Shown here: positions 14,279-18,115 of the stretch, one piece after another | How the letters are laid out: each line of letters opens with the position of its first letter | How positions within the stretch are numbered: position 1 is the first letter of the stretch | Assembly (NCBI GenBank): GCA_000509225.1 | Contig: BAOK01000001.1 | Span: forward strand, 2,074,245-2,138,244 | DNA from: Parvibaculaceae bacterium Mf 1.05b.01 | GTDB taxonomy: Bacteria > Pseudomonadota > Alphaproteobacteria > Parvibaculales > Parvibaculaceae | Direction of reading: 5' to 3' | DNA length: 64,000 bases | The notes under the pieces: generated by a model | What the model was told of the DNA's origin: nothing | Databases searched by the model: none | The model's input: only the letters and a program-made list of their open reading frames with translations | Program-made: the position numbers and the translations under genes

Positions 14279-14360
14279 CGCCGAGATCGAACGACCCCAG
14301 CGCCTTCCAAATGATGCTATGAACCTCCTACGTATTGAGTTTTCGTAAGAGACCTTTTGG

Positions 14361-15335
14361 ATGACAGACCCCCATCGACAACCCAATGATAGCCGCGTTG
14401 CCGACGCATCCTTTGATAATTGGGTCGATTTTTATGCGCCAGAAAAGACGAAGCCCTATCTGCGGCTGATGCGCGCCGACCGCCCCATCGGTACCTGGCT
14501 GCTGCTATGGCCCTGTCTTTGGTCCATTGCGCTTGCTGCCCCCCTTGGCGACGGCTGGTCCGTTCTGTCGCTTCTCTATTTGCCAGAACCCGGCACCATG
14601 CTGCTGTTTGCCCTTGGTGCGTTTGTCATGCGCGGCGCCGGCTGCACCATCAATGACATTATTGACCATGAGTTTGACGCGAAGGTCGCCCGGACACGAT
14701 CACGACCCATTCCTTCAGGCGCTGTCAGTCTCCGGCAGGCGTGGATTTTCCTGATCGCGCTTTGTCTTGTTGGTCTCGCGATCCTGGTGCAGTTCAATCT
14801 CTTCACCATCCTGCTGGGTGCTTCCTCGCTGTTGCTCGTCGGGCTCTACCCGTTTGCCAAGCGCTTTACCTATTGGCCACAGGTGATGCTCGGGCTCACC
14901 TTCAACTGGGGCGCTCTTCTCGGCTGGGCTGCCGTTGCCGGCAGTCTTAGTCTTCCGCCGGTGCTGCTCTATATCGGCTGCATCTGCTGGACGGTCGGCT
15001 ATGACACGATCTACGCCCATCAGGACAAAGAGGATGATGCGCTCCTCGGCCTCAAGTCGACGGCGCTTCGATTTGGGGACAATACGAAGACCTGGCTCTA
15101 TGGGTTCTATGGAGCGGCCCTTCTTTTCTTTGGTCTGGCGGGCATGGCGGCGGCCATTGGATGGATTTTCTATCTGGGTCTTGTCATCGGCGGCTGGCAT
15201 CTCATGCGCCAGGTCACGCGCACTAAGATTGATGATGCCGCCAGGTGTCTCGCTGTTTTCAAATCCAATCGCGACTTTGGCGTGATCCTGTTTGCATCCA
15301 TCCTTGCGGGCACGCTGGGCTCCGGTCTGCACTAG
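14361..15335 (+). CDS. ubiA: 4-hydroxybenzoate polyprenyltransferase
   Basis: The 324-residue integral membrane prenyltransferase attaches the polyprenyl tail to 4-hydroxybenzoate in ubiquinone synthesis. The two aspartate motifs are intact: NDIIDHEFD at 98-106 followed by RTRSRPIPSG, and YDTIYAHQDKEDD at about 217-229. The N-terminal PYLRLMRADRPIGTWLLLWP is typical. About eight to nine hydrophobic segments follow. Ubiquinone supply suits an organism with a full aa3 respiratory chain. It stands 82 bases after the SprA gene. Confidence 0.97.
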   Translation: MTDPHRQPNDSRVADASFDNWVDFYAPEKTKPYLRLMRADRPIGTWLLLWPCLWSIALAAPLGDGWSVLSLLYLPEPGTMLLFALGAFVMRGAGCTINDIIDHEFDAKVARTRSRPIPSGAVSLRQAWIFLIALCLVGLAILVQFNLFTILLGASSLLLVGLYPFAKRFTYWPQVMLGLTFNWGALLGWAAVAGSLSLPPVLLYIGCICWTVGYDTIYAHQDKEDDALLGLKSTALRFGDNTKTWLYGFYGAALLFFGLAGMAAAIGWIFYLGLVIGGWHLMRQVTRTKIDDAARCLAVFKSNRDFGVILFASILAGTLGSGLH

Positions 15336-15385
15336 TCGGCCCAGGTCCCTCTTAACCCTGAGCGTAGATGTCGCAGCAGACGAGC

Positions 15386-15414
15386 TTGAACCATATTGCA
15401 CCGCACCATATATA
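15386..15414 (+). promoter_or_regulatory. Strong sigma-70-like promoter of the 38-codon unit
   Basis: TTGAAC (15386-15391), a 17-base spacer and TATATA (15409-15414) form the best promoter match I see in the window. The predicted start is near 15421, inside the hairpin at 15417-15436. Confidence 0.6.
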
Positions 15415-15416
15415 TC

Positions 15417-15436
15417 GCACAGCAACATAGCTGTGC
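15417..15436 (+). other. Hairpin at the predicted transcript start
   Basis: GCACAGC and GCTGTGC form a perfect seven-base-pair stem with a six-base loop (AACATA). It overlaps the predicted transcription start of the small unit, so it may be an operator at the start site or a 5' stabilising stem. Confidence 0.5.
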
Positions 15437-15488
15437 TTCACGCCAATTCCGACGCGCTGGTGCAGCTAGACCATCAAGGAGCGAACCT

Positions 15489-15605
15489 ATGTTCAAGCAA
15501 TGGTTCCATGGTGCCGCAGTTGCAGCGAGCCTCTTTTCCGGCATGCCTTACTGGCGTGACGAAGGAGTCCGCTCTGCAAAACGCGCTTCAGCACACAAAG
15601 GGTAA
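15489..15605 (+). CDS. Putative 38-residue small protein
   Basis: An ATG 7 bases after a textbook AAGGAG opens a 38-codon frame ending in TAA. The product starts MFKQWFHGAAVAASLF, with a hydrophobic first 22 residues, and ends with a basic tail containing RSAKRASAHKG; it could associate with membranes. I recognise no family. The frame sits between a strong promoter (15386-15414) and a terminator (15646-15680), so it has its own transcript of about 260 bases. An alternative is that the transcript is a regulatory RNA and the frame incidental, but the Shine-Dalgarno argues for translation. Confidence 0.5.
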   Translation: MFKQWFHGAAVAASLFSGMPYWRDEGVRSAKRASAHKG

Positions 15606-15645
15606 GCTCATTTCCTGAGCTATTCTGCCAAAAACTTAAAAATCG

Positions 15646-15680
15646 AACCCCAGTTCATTTCTATGGCCTGGGGTTTTGTT
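15646..15680 (+). terminator. Rho-independent terminator
   Basis: AACCCCAG (15646-15653) pairs with CTGGGGTT (15668-15675) across a 14-base loop and is followed by a T-rich TTGTT tail. It closes the small unit and insulates the TetR control region. Confidence 0.65.
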
Positions 15681-15691
15681 TGGTTCAAAAT

Positions 15692-15707
15692 ATGAATCTA
15701 TTTTCAT
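15692..15707. promoter_or_regulatory. TetR operator copy 1
   Basis: ATGAA, TCTATT, TTCAT: a 5-6-5 inverted repeat just upstream of the predicted -35 element. It matches copies 2 and 3 in spacing and half-sites. Confidence 0.6.
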
Positions 15708-15709
15708 TT

Positions 15710-15737
15710 TTTACGCGCGCCCTCTTGATTTTATAAA
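15710..15737 (+). promoter_or_regulatory. Candidate promoter of the tetR-desaturase operon
   Basis: TTTACG (15710-15715) and TATAAA (15732-15737) are 16 bases apart. Operator 1 abuts the -35 side and operator 2 begins at the base after the -10, an arrangement expected for repression. Confidence 0.45.
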
Positions 15738-15753
15738 GTGAATCTGTTTTCAT
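15738..15753. promoter_or_regulatory. TetR operator copy 2
   Basis: GTGAA, TCTGTT, TTCAT: the same 5-6-5 dyad as copy 1, 46 bases further on, covering the predicted transcription start. Confidence 0.6.
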
Positions 15754-15779
15754 TAATAAATCAAGGAGACCGCCATCAA

Positions 15780-15795
15780 CTGAATTGGATTTCAT
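15780..15795. promoter_or_regulatory. TetR operator copy 3
   Basis: CTGAA, TTGGAT, TTCAT: a third dyad of the same form, 42 bases after copy 2 and ending four bases before the TetR start codon. Confidence 0.5.
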
Positions 15796-15799
15796 ATCT

Positions 15800-16447
15800 A
15801 TGGCCTATCGGCAAACGGAGCACGTGGCGCAGCGCCTCGAGGAAAACAGGCGCCGAATTCTGAAGGCTGCGCGCGAGCTTGTCGCGGAAGGCGGGTTCGC
15901 AAAAGCGCAGATCACGGCCGTGGCCAAAAGGGCAGGTCTCGCGACGGGCACGCTTTATCGCTATTTCCCGTCAAAAGATGATCTCTGTCGTCAGGTGTTC
16001 CGGGAAGTCTCCTCTCGGGAAATGAATATCCTTGCGGGCATTGCCGCGGCAGACCATCCGGCACTTGATCGCTTTGATCTGGTGCTGCGTACCTTTTCGG
16101 GACGCGCGCTCAAAAGCCGTCGCCTCGCCTACGCCCTTCTGGCAGAGCCTGTTGATGTTGCCCTCGCCGAAGAACGCACCCGGTTCAGGAAGACCCACGC
16201 GGCGATTTTTGCGCGCATTATTGATGATGCCATCGCCGAGGGAAGTGTGAGCCCACGCGATAGCAAGCTTGTTGCCGCTTGCATTGCGGGCGCCATCCCA
16301 ACAGCGCTGGTAGGCCCGCTTGCACCAGAAACCGATGCGCAGGGAAGCGATGATGTCCTCAACAGCATCGTTCAATTCTGCTTCGGGGCACTGGGTGTAA
16401 CCGCCCGACAGACTGCGACAAAGACACAATTGGAGAGCCGGCTATGA
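15800..16447 (+). CDS. TetR/AcrR family transcriptional regulator
   Basis: The 215-residue protein has an N-terminal TetR helix-turn-helix (about residues 13-58) with ITAVAKRAGLATGTLYRYFPSKDDL, and a ligand-binding C-terminal domain. It overlaps the downstream desaturase by 4 bases (ATGA), so the two are translationally coupled and the regulator very likely controls its own operon through the three operators at 15692-15795. ATG 15800 is preferred; an in-frame TTG at 15785 is closer to the AAGGAG at 15763-15768 but would still be poorly spaced. Confidence 0.93.
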   Translation: MAYRQTEHVAQRLEENRRRILKAARELVAEGGFAKAQITAVAKRAGLATGTLYRYFPSKDDLCRQVFREVSSREMNILAGIAAADHPALDRFDLVLRTFSGRALKSRRLAYALLAEPVDVALAEERTRFRKTHAAIFARIIDDAIAEGSVSPRDSKLVAACIAGAIPTALVGPLAPETDAQGSDDVLNSIVQFCFGALGVTARQTATKTQLESRL

Positions 16448-17457
16448 ACAAGGTCAAGGCACAAGACATTCTCACCGAGGACCAGATTGCAGTTGTACGC
16501 AAGCGCTCTGATCTTCGCGCCATATGGATCGCCGCTCACGCTTGGGGAACCTGTTTCGCCGCGATGGCCCTATTCGTCTATTTCCCAAATCCGATCACCT
16601 TCCTTCTGGCGTTCTTGATTATCGGCAGTCGTCAGCTGGGTCTGGCCATTCTCATGCATGATGCATCTCACGGCGTTCTGGCGAAATCCCCCAAGCTCAA
16701 TGAATTCATCGGTCAATGGCTCGGTGCCTATCCCTTGATGGCGGAGACGTGGTCCTATCGGCGCTATCATCTGCAGCACCACAACAATACACAGCAAGCG
16801 GACGATCCGGATCTGATCCTTTCCGCGCCCTTCCCCATCACGAAGAAGAGTTTCCGGCGGAAAATGTGGCGGGATATTACCGGCCAGACCGGGTACCAGC
16901 AGCGCAAGGCTCAGATCCTGAGCGCGATCGGCTCTTCTGACATGCCCGTTGCTGATCGAGTCAGACGCTATTGGTCAAAACTGGGTCGGGCGACCGTTGT
17001 CCACCTCATTCTGTTGACTGGCCTCGCTGCGACAGGTCACTGGTATCTCTATTTTGTTCTATGGCTGCTCCCGTTCCTGACATGGCATCAGGTGATCACG
17101 CGCATTCGAAATATTGCGGAACACGCCATGGTGCCTGATAGCGATGATGTCTTTCGCTCGTCGCGGACAACTGTGCTTAGCCTTTTGGAGCGCGCATTTT
17201 TCGGACCCTATTGGGTCAACTATCATGTTGAACATCATCTCATGATGTGGATCCCTTGCTACAATCTCCCCAAAGCGCAGGAATTCCTCAAGGCCAATGG
17301 GCATTGGGACAGAATGGAAACCATGAACGGATATTGGGAAGTGATCAAAATGGCGACCTCTAAGCCAGATGATCAGGACCAACCAGGCGAGGTCATTCAC
17401 AACACGCGACGCCGGGTTGCCGGGATCACGTCGGAAGGGTTTGAAGCTGCAAACTGA
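16444..17457 (+). CDS. Membrane fatty acid desaturase
   Basis: The 337-residue diiron membrane desaturase has the three histidine boxes: HDASH at 72-76, HLQHH at 109-113 and HVEHH at 261-265, plus an extra His227 in NIAEHAM. Hydrophobic segments lie at about 27-63 and 180-215. The likely substrate is a fatty acyl chain in membrane lipid or acyl carrier, though lipid hydroxylases share these boxes. It is co-translated with the TetR gene, which suggests control of membrane fluidity or response to a fatty acid ligand. The C-terminal 60 residues are hydrophilic. Confidence 0.92.
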   Translation: MNKVKAQDILTEDQIAVVRKRSDLRAIWIAAHAWGTCFAAMALFVYFPNPITFLLAFLIIGSRQLGLAILMHDASHGVLAKSPKLNEFIGQWLGAYPLMAETWSYRRYHLQHHNNTQQADDPDLILSAPFPITKKSFRRKMWRDITGQTGYQQRKAQILSAIGSSDMPVADRVRRYWSKLGRATVVHLILLTGLAATGHWYLYFVLWLLPFLTWHQVITRIRNIAEHAMVPDSDDVFRSSRTTVLSLLERAFFGPYWVNYHVEHHLMMWIPCYNLPKAQEFLKANGHWDRMETMNGYWEVIKMATSKPDDQDQPGEVIHNTRRRVAGITSEGFEAAN

Positions 17458-18115
17458 CGACCTATCCGCGGCCAAGGAAGACCCGTCAGCGTTCATCCGC
17501 GCGCATACGGCATTGCACGAGCCCCCTCTCGTTCCGGAGCTTCGTTTGCATCTGGCCACTGAGGGCGATGACCTCTGGCACATGGGCGAGGAAGAGCTGA
17601 CGGCTACGGGGCTCCCTGCCCCCTTCTGGGCATTTGCCTGGGCAGGTGGACAGGCACTCGCGCGTTTTCTGCTGGATAGTCCGGAAATCATTGCTCAGCA
17701 GAGAGTGCTCGACTTTGGGTCCGGGTCGGGCCTTGTGGGCCTCGCCGCCCTGCGCGCCGGGGCCAGGTCAGCACTTGCAGCCGATATTGATGTCTTTGCC
17801 TGCGCCGCGGCAGAGCTCAATGCTCAGGCCAACCATGTTTCCCTCACCACGACCGCGCAAGATCTCGTCGGTCAAGGTGGTCCGTGGGACGTCATCCTTG
17901 TCGGCGACATGTGCTACGAACAACCGCTTGCCGGTGAAGTTGAGGCTTGGCTGCTGGCCCAAGCATCCAAAGGGATTGATGTGTTCATCGGTGATCCAGG
18001 CCGCACTTATCTTCCCAAGGACAGGCTTCGGAAAGTCATCTCCTATGCGGTGAAAACGTCGCGAGAGCTGGAAGATACGGACGTGCGAAACACGTCTGTT
18101 TGGCAGTTTTCCTGA
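17441..18115 (+). CDS. Class I SAM methyltransferase, COG3897 (ETF-beta/nicotinamide methylase-like)
   Basis: The protein shows a SAM motif I (VLDFGSGSGLVGLAALRAGA), an acidic second strand (ALAADIDVFACAAAELNA) and the family start FIRAHTALHEPPLVPELRL followed by LPAPFWAFAWAGGQALAR. These match the COG3897 group related to mammalian ETF-beta lysine methyltransferase, so a protein lysine is a plausible target but unproven. The start is uncertain: TTG 17441 gives about 224 residues, the family norm, with GGAAGG just upstream; ATG 17369 would add 24 residues. Either overlaps the desaturase end, making this the third gene of the TetR operon. Confidence 0.85.
   Translation: MKLQTDDLSAAKEDPSAFIRAHTALHEPPLVPELRLHLATEGDDLWHMGEEELTATGLPAPFWAFAWAGGQALARFLLDSPEIIAQQRVLDFGSGSGLVGLAALRAGARSALAADIDVFACAAAELNAQANHVSLTTTAQDLVGQGGPWDVILVGDMCYEQPLAGEVEAWLLAQASKGIDVFIGDPGRTYLPKDRLRKVISYAVKTSRELEDTDVRNTSVWQFS

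Follow-up and report, generated by a model that had tools for sequence, protein, structure and literature searches.

A conserved microprotein gene with predicted PhaR-type operators precedes a tetR–desaturase pair in the Parvibaculaceae

In the window, the 64-kb stretch of Parvibaculaceae DNA that was analyzed here, a short interval between a ubiA gene and a tetR gene carries what looks like a complete small transcription unit, and the question is what this unit produces, what controls it, and what its product might do. The original prediction described a self-contained unit, with its own predicted promoter and terminator and belonging to neither flanking gene, and this description is accurate for the transcript. 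Direct reading of the sequence places the promoter hexamers, the hairpin, the Shine-Dalgarno sequence, the frame, and the terminator at the positions originally given. The features of the locus are as follows.

15369..15376, + strand: upstream element TGTCGCAG, of the form TG[ACT]CGCA, which in 27 of 30 family members stands 17–18 bases ahead of a -35 TTG
15386..15391, + strand: -35 hexamer TTGAAC, read directly, with TTG at the equivalent place in aligned relatives
15391..15411, + strand: candidate operator 1 of PhaR type, fitting WNWDDNYGCRNYGCRNHHWNW at 20 of 21 positions
15397-15405, + strand: core of operator 1, TGCACCGCA, inside the -35/-10 spacer
15409..15414, + strand: -10 hexamer TATATA, read directly and kept in relatives
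15416..15424, + strand: candidate decayed operator 2, CGCACAGCA, with one mismatch to YGCRNYGCR, spanning the predicted transcription start
15417..15436, + strand: 7-bp hairpin GCACAGC-AACATA-GCTGTGC, overlapping operator 2, its perfect stem not conserved
15476..15481, + strand: Shine-Dalgarno sequence AAGGAG, 7 bases ahead of the ATG at 15489, with GGAG kept in relatives
15489..15605, + strand: microprotein gene, MFKQWFHGAAVAASLFSGMPYWRDEGVRSAKRASAHKG, 38 codons with the stop at 15603-15605, assigned from homologues, alignment, and codon constraint
15646..15675, + strand: terminator AACCCCAG-(14)-CTGGGGTT, an 8-bp stem with a 14-base loop, then TTTTG
15693..15706, no strand assigned: TetR-operator-like sequence TGAATCTATTTTCA, first of three, from sequence pattern
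15739..15752, no strand assigned: TetR-operator-like sequence TGAATCTGTTTTCA, from sequence pattern
15781..15794, no strand assigned: TetR-operator-like sequence TGAATTGGATTTCA, from sequence pattern
15800..16447, + strand: tetR-family regulator, conserved downstream neighbor
16444..17457, + strand: fatty acid desaturase, conserved second neighbor

The -35 and -10 hexamers are separated by a 17-base spacer. A consensus scan of 14300–17500 lists neither this promoter, whose TATATA fails the rule of the scan, nor the terminator (loop limit 8 bases), and returns no excess over shuffled sequence (promoters, 1 versus a mean of 1.6; terminators, 3 versus a mean of 3.5). Taken alone, the single parts of the unit are weak and not beyond chance. 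What does go beyond chance is the conservation of the frame, the start, and the promoter sites in relatives.

Homologues of the microprotein were found in 30 of 40 Parvibaculaceae genomes (E <= 1.3e-7) with a search profile built from five microproteins plus that of G010 (A2). The same profile gave a match in G004 (E 0.0093) among the family genomes, which was taken as chance and is not among the 30. A first DNA comparison across 61 genomes had revealed similar DNA in 6, and in G006 and G009, the latter from another genus, the DNA match covered no more than the beginning of the frame. The 30 members are 36–64 residues long and share a motif that reads roughly F[KR][QE]WLHxAAxAAxxF[TS]G, in which W5, A10, and A13 are invariant in the alignment and H7, A9, F16, G18, and W22 nearly so. 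Start sites align among members, one of which uses GTG in place of ATG. A second conserved piece, FxPxLRAAD-like, is present at the C terminus in g3 and in g5, a large genus, and has been lost in the window's genus. Of the hydrophobic head and basic tail originally described, the N-terminal block is conserved and the basic tail is not.

Constraint on the frame is seen at the level of codons. In a 21-codon block, chosen for gap-free alignment, mean pN is 0.234 and mean pS is 0.700, with pN the lower value in 432 of the 435 pairs, which are not independent of one another. Entropy is highest at the third codon position (1.20 versus 0.77 and 0.42). These codons are under purifying selection, and on such comparisons the gene is almost certainly protein-coding.

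As far as sampled, the microprotein family is restricted to the Parvibaculaceae. Among 385 genomes spread evenly over the class, 10 have a match at E <= 0.01, and 5 of these are Parvibaculaceae; the other five were set aside as chance matches to long unrelated frames without an operator core. A class search with a smaller profile (289 genomes) returned 51 at E <= 0.1, from which one new member, G010, was accepted; of the other extra-family matches, only L068 was inspected individually. In a collection of 84,980 species, 63 pattern stretches reduced to three loci, which were those of G006, G001, and G009 again. The earlier statement that no family is recognized agrees with the libraries: scans of the 30 members against Pfam and NCBIfam give nothing above cut-off, phasin families included, and the window protein matches 0 Pfam families. 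The literature searches made here returned no paper on the microprotein.

In the alignment of relatives, promoter conservation is highest between the hexamers and in the bases around them. At 15396 the window reads TTGCACCGCACCATA, with a near-copy, TCGCACAGCAACATA, at 15415; the core TGCACCGCA matches YGCRNYGCR, the center of the Sinorhizobium meliloti PhaR motif, which is reported as WNWDDNYGCRNYGCRNHHWNW in PMC12542648. In the same paper, S. meliloti PhaR sites are placed just after the -35 element (phaZ) or between the -10 element and the start (SMa1961). A YGCRNYGCR core is present within 100 bases upstream of the start in 29 of 30 members, against about 12% expected from background density; control patterns with altered spacing or letters, six in all, occur in 0–5 of the 30. 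G010 has the gene and no such core within 250 bases. Two full cores are found in G008, G012, G015, G022, G024, G026, and G033; those of G008 and G012 are 19 bases apart, which is the spacing of the intact and decayed sites in the window. Operator 2 is intact in G008, G012, G006, and many other relatives, and the window keeps one full core of the two. Across the family, 28 distinct 21-mers match the published WNWDDNYGCRNYGCRNHHWNW at 18–21 of 21 positions, although the consensus comes from Sinorhizobium, which belongs to another family. The ends of the core are fixed and its interior bases vary.

Several further observations concern these promoters. Divergent small frames ending in FKAAAD occupy the same place in G025 (L101) and G028 (L103), each with two operator cores; they were left out of the 30, their sequence similarity being not significant, and at these two loci the promoter seems better conserved than the protein. 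A lone PhaR-type core, CGCAATGCA, lies 81 bases before the tetR match in G031 (L106), which is without the microprotein. The TG[ACT]CGCA element is found 10–11 bases further away in G007 and G011. It is possibly a candidate activator site, and a literature search for its identity found nothing fitting.

The genomic neighborhood is asymmetric. A same-strand tetR lies within 1.5 kb downstream in 29 of 30 microprotein loci, and a desaturase gene follows downstream in 29 of 30. A ubiA gene lies within 1.5 kb upstream in only 8 of 30, and the link to ubiA was dropped; genes other than ubiA stand there even in the congeneric G001 and G003, and elsewhere the upstream gene is an MFS gene (G010), a transposase-like gene (G017; both named by eye), or others. 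Because tetR and the desaturase are constant and the upstream gene varies, the conserved linkage is with the downstream pair and not with ubiA. The independence from both flanks that was originally claimed holds for the transcript, but as a gene the microprotein is regularly accompanied by tetR and the desaturase. The gap between the microprotein gene and tetR is 81–430 bases (computed for 28 of 30). The linkage has two exceptions, G011, where the contig ends, and G061, a draft with a deletion or misassembly. In G061, tetR is missing, as is the first half of the desaturase gene, whose remainder directly follows the microprotein gene; no weight is put on this arrangement, as the draft is 71% complete. 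Of the 40 family genomes, 37 have a tetR. No microprotein was recognized ahead of it at the inspected loci of G005, G014, G019, G031, and G063, and G013, whose tetR locus is at a contig edge, also has no recognizable copy there, giving six tetR-bearing genomes without one. On the plus strand of the window, TGAAYN(4-6)TTCA occurs three times, in each case within 110 bases before tetR. These repeats are likely candidate TetR operators for the tetR–desaturase pair.

AlphaFold2, run with four sequences, gives two helices, 2–17 and 20–36, in a weak model (mean pLDDT 79.1, pTM 0.35). The microprotein is thus modeled as helical, with an arrangement of the helices that the weak model does not fix. The usual mark for a transmembrane segment is a hydropathy of 1.6, and no stretch of that strength is found over the 30 members, in which the maximum 19-residue hydropathy is 0.05–1.40. 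The N-terminal half is aromatic and alanine-rich and is moderately amphipathic, with a helical moment of 0.17–0.41. Composition, control, and linkage together suggest, tentatively and at somewhat less than even odds, that the peptide acts at a hydrophobic surface, either a membrane or a granule.

One role at such a surface would be that of a membrane-associated protein that modulates the neighboring desaturase or the lipid composition, with PhaR providing the link to carbon status. We regard this role as conceivable, at less than an even chance by a good distance. It is in keeping with a desaturase linkage that persists in 29 of 30 loci though the upstream gene changes, and with retention of the microprotein in genomes that lack PhaC (see below). 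Six tetR-bearing genomes have no recognizable copy, however, which means that the desaturase does not need the microprotein, and the linkage may reflect mere stability of gene order.

The other role to be weighed is that of a granule coat, a minimal phasin. PhaR normally senses the storage plastic PHB. Of the 21 genomes scanned, 15 have a PhaC_N match; the six without one are G000–G005, in which TIGR01836 matches only partially and far below cut-off. The window genome (G000) has phaR and no PhaC_N or Phasin_2 match. Phasin_2 is absent from G000–G003, which says little because it is also absent from the PhaC-bearing G008, G009, and G012. G000–G005 thus keep PhaR without a recognizable PHA synthase. 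The microprotein is present in G000–G003 and was not recognized in G004 or G005. By sequence it is found in 4 of 6 PhaC-negative and 11 of 15 PhaC-positive genomes (13 of 15 with the divergent G025 and G028), the PhaC-positive genomes without a sequence-recognized copy being G019, G025, G028, and G031. So far as sequence recognition reaches, its presence does not track PhaC. A minimal phasin would share PhaR-type control with the phasins, as well as the helical, moderately amphipathic N-terminal half; yet the microprotein is carried by G000–G003 without PhaC_N matches, it is missing from the locus in the PhaC-positive G019 and G031, and no Pfam or NCBIfam family, phasins included, matches it. 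On balance, a granule coat is an unlikely role.

Whether PhaR is in fact the regulator was addressed through phaR itself and other candidate targets. All 13 genomes tested encode PhaR (PF07879). A YGCRNYGCR core precedes the phaR domain by no more than 400 bases in 12 of them (controls, 2–6 of 13), and the window genome's own phaR (G000:C1:610208, L042) has three such cores upstream. The core is also found at 4 of 8 phasin loci (controls, 0–3), as pairs such as TGTGCATTGCACA, and at none of the other four. Ahead of tetR, it occurs in one of the 13 upstream regions sampled, out of 30 tetR loci. Upstream regions of phaC show no enrichment (8 of 15 versus 4–9 for controls) and are uninformative because the controls are equally frequent. 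The loose pattern WDDNYGCRNYGCRNHHW is mildly enriched genome-wide in G000 (112 sites versus 79 for the reversed control), and the core alone is therefore no proof of a site. The exact pattern TTGCNNNGCANCATA occurs four times in G000 (control, 1): in the microprotein promoter, at one intragenic position, and at the starts of an acyl-CoA thioesterase gene and an HpcH/HpaI aldolase family gene (L021, L022; G000:C2:895590 and 1187423). These two genes are candidate PhaR targets, and the small set would be consistent with a carbon regulon.

From these comparisons, the microprotein gene is very probably under PhaR control, with PhaR predicted to bind and repress it. That the promoter sites belong to a different regulator is quite improbable. 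Binding by PhaR is predicted here from sequence, and PhaR lacks an obvious signal in genomes without PhaC, both of which leave room for another protein; the same core, however, is found ahead of phaR in 12 of the 13 genomes and stands in pairs before several phasins.

Under PhaR control, the identity of the signal becomes the point of interest. PHB is unlikely to be the signal in the window's organism because no PhaC was found there. PhaR may have been retasked in this lineage without a PHB synthase, reading carbon overflow through another ligand, with the microprotein as an output that adjusts the membrane through the neighboring desaturase; this scenario is speculative, and we give it a low probability. 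On this scenario, the peptide would, in the wider family, link the storage of carbon with the lipid state of the membrane. G000–G003, which keep phaR, its upstream sites, and the microprotein target, provide a natural test of the PhaR ligand without a PHB synthase, and what PhaR reads in the PhaC-less genus is the most testable question that arises here.

The remaining alternatives place the function in the RNA. The predicted fold of a 220-base RNA, terminator excluded, is no more stable than those of shuffled sequences (z -0.80, with 39 of 200 shuffles folding as well), and the window has no Rfam match at gathering score. The perfect hairpin is not a selected RNA element: it overlaps the decayed PhaR-type operator, and among the six nearest carriers (G000, G001, G002, G003, G006, and G009) the perfect stem is found only in G000 and G002, that is, in one of the five other than the window genome. 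In several g5 members (e.g. G018, G032, and G016), the hairpin at the equivalent place is the operator palindrome itself, and we infer that the window hairpin is a by-product of a decayed operator. The suggested comparison of codon-level with stem-level conservation comes out for the codons, which are constrained, the perfect stem not being kept. It had also been asked whether orthologous regions would lack promoter, frame, and terminator together. Promoter and frame are kept; the terminator is weaker, a perfect-stem terminator following 10 of 30 members in a strict scan.

A leader peptide that controls the tetR–desaturase pair by attenuation at the intervening terminator would account for the invariant order of microprotein gene, tetR, and desaturase and for the terminator between them in the window. 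This alternative is very unlikely, as conservation bears on the amino acid sequence rather than on a string of regulatory codons, the window shows three TetR-operator-like repeats in an upstream region that belongs to tetR itself, and the strict scan places a terminator after only 10 of 30 members. An MmgR-like small regulatory RNA repressed by PhaR, with the frame present by chance, is slightly less probable still. In its favor are a short unit closed by a terminator and MmgR itself, described in PMC12542648 as a PhaR target that controls PHB and has a similar site, CAATTGTGCACCGCAGCATTA. Against it, constraint here is at the codon level, the fold is unremarkable, no Rfam family matches in the window, and the perfect hairpin is not conserved. 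The original choice between a 38-residue protein and a small RNA is thereby settled for the protein by codon constraint, with a dual-function RNA, both coding and regulatory, as a possible variant.

The explanation that we prefer, and consider probable as a whole, is a PhaR-controlled microprotein gene with a surface-acting product. Its comparative footing consists of the coding signal, the conservation, the linkage, the operator-like sites, and the presence of phaR; what we infer beyond it is that PhaR binds and represses, what it responds to, and where and how the product acts. The gene would be monocistronic and encode a microprotein of 36–64 residues, with one intact and one decayed operator of PhaR (AniA) type overlapping its promoter, where PhaR would block RNA polymerase until drawn off the DNA. 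PHB would be the signal that draws PhaR off in PHB-making relatives. In the window's genus, in which no PHB synthase is seen, PhaR would answer another signal or repress constantly. The short, mostly helical peptide would then most likely act at a hydrophobic surface, which may be the membrane close to the desaturase or, in PHB makers, the granule. A well-studied carbon-storage switch would thereby gain a conserved microprotein that went unrecognized in the family libraries searched.

Similar to this locus, the PhaR/AniA regulon of S. meliloti, as described in PMC12542648, uses a YGCRNYGCR core with AT-rich arms, has sites in the -35/-10 spacer or between the -10 element and the start, and includes uncharacterized small proteins, SMc03998 and SMc02051. 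The main differences from that regulon are that the target here is an unnamed microprotein beside tetR and a desaturase and that no PHB synthase is seen in the window's genus. The phasins (Pfam Phasin_2 and relatives) are likewise small and helical and under PhaR-type control, whereas the microprotein has no profile match, is present without PhaC, and is less than half the usual phasin size. MmgR is, as predicted for this unit, a short PhaR-controlled transcript, but the microprotein unit is coding. DesT/DesB of Pseudomonas is a TetR-controlled fatty acid desaturase operon and resembles the downstream pair in having a TetR regulator beside a desaturase with operator-like repeats; here, in contrast, a separately promoted microprotein gene precedes tetR and the desaturase.
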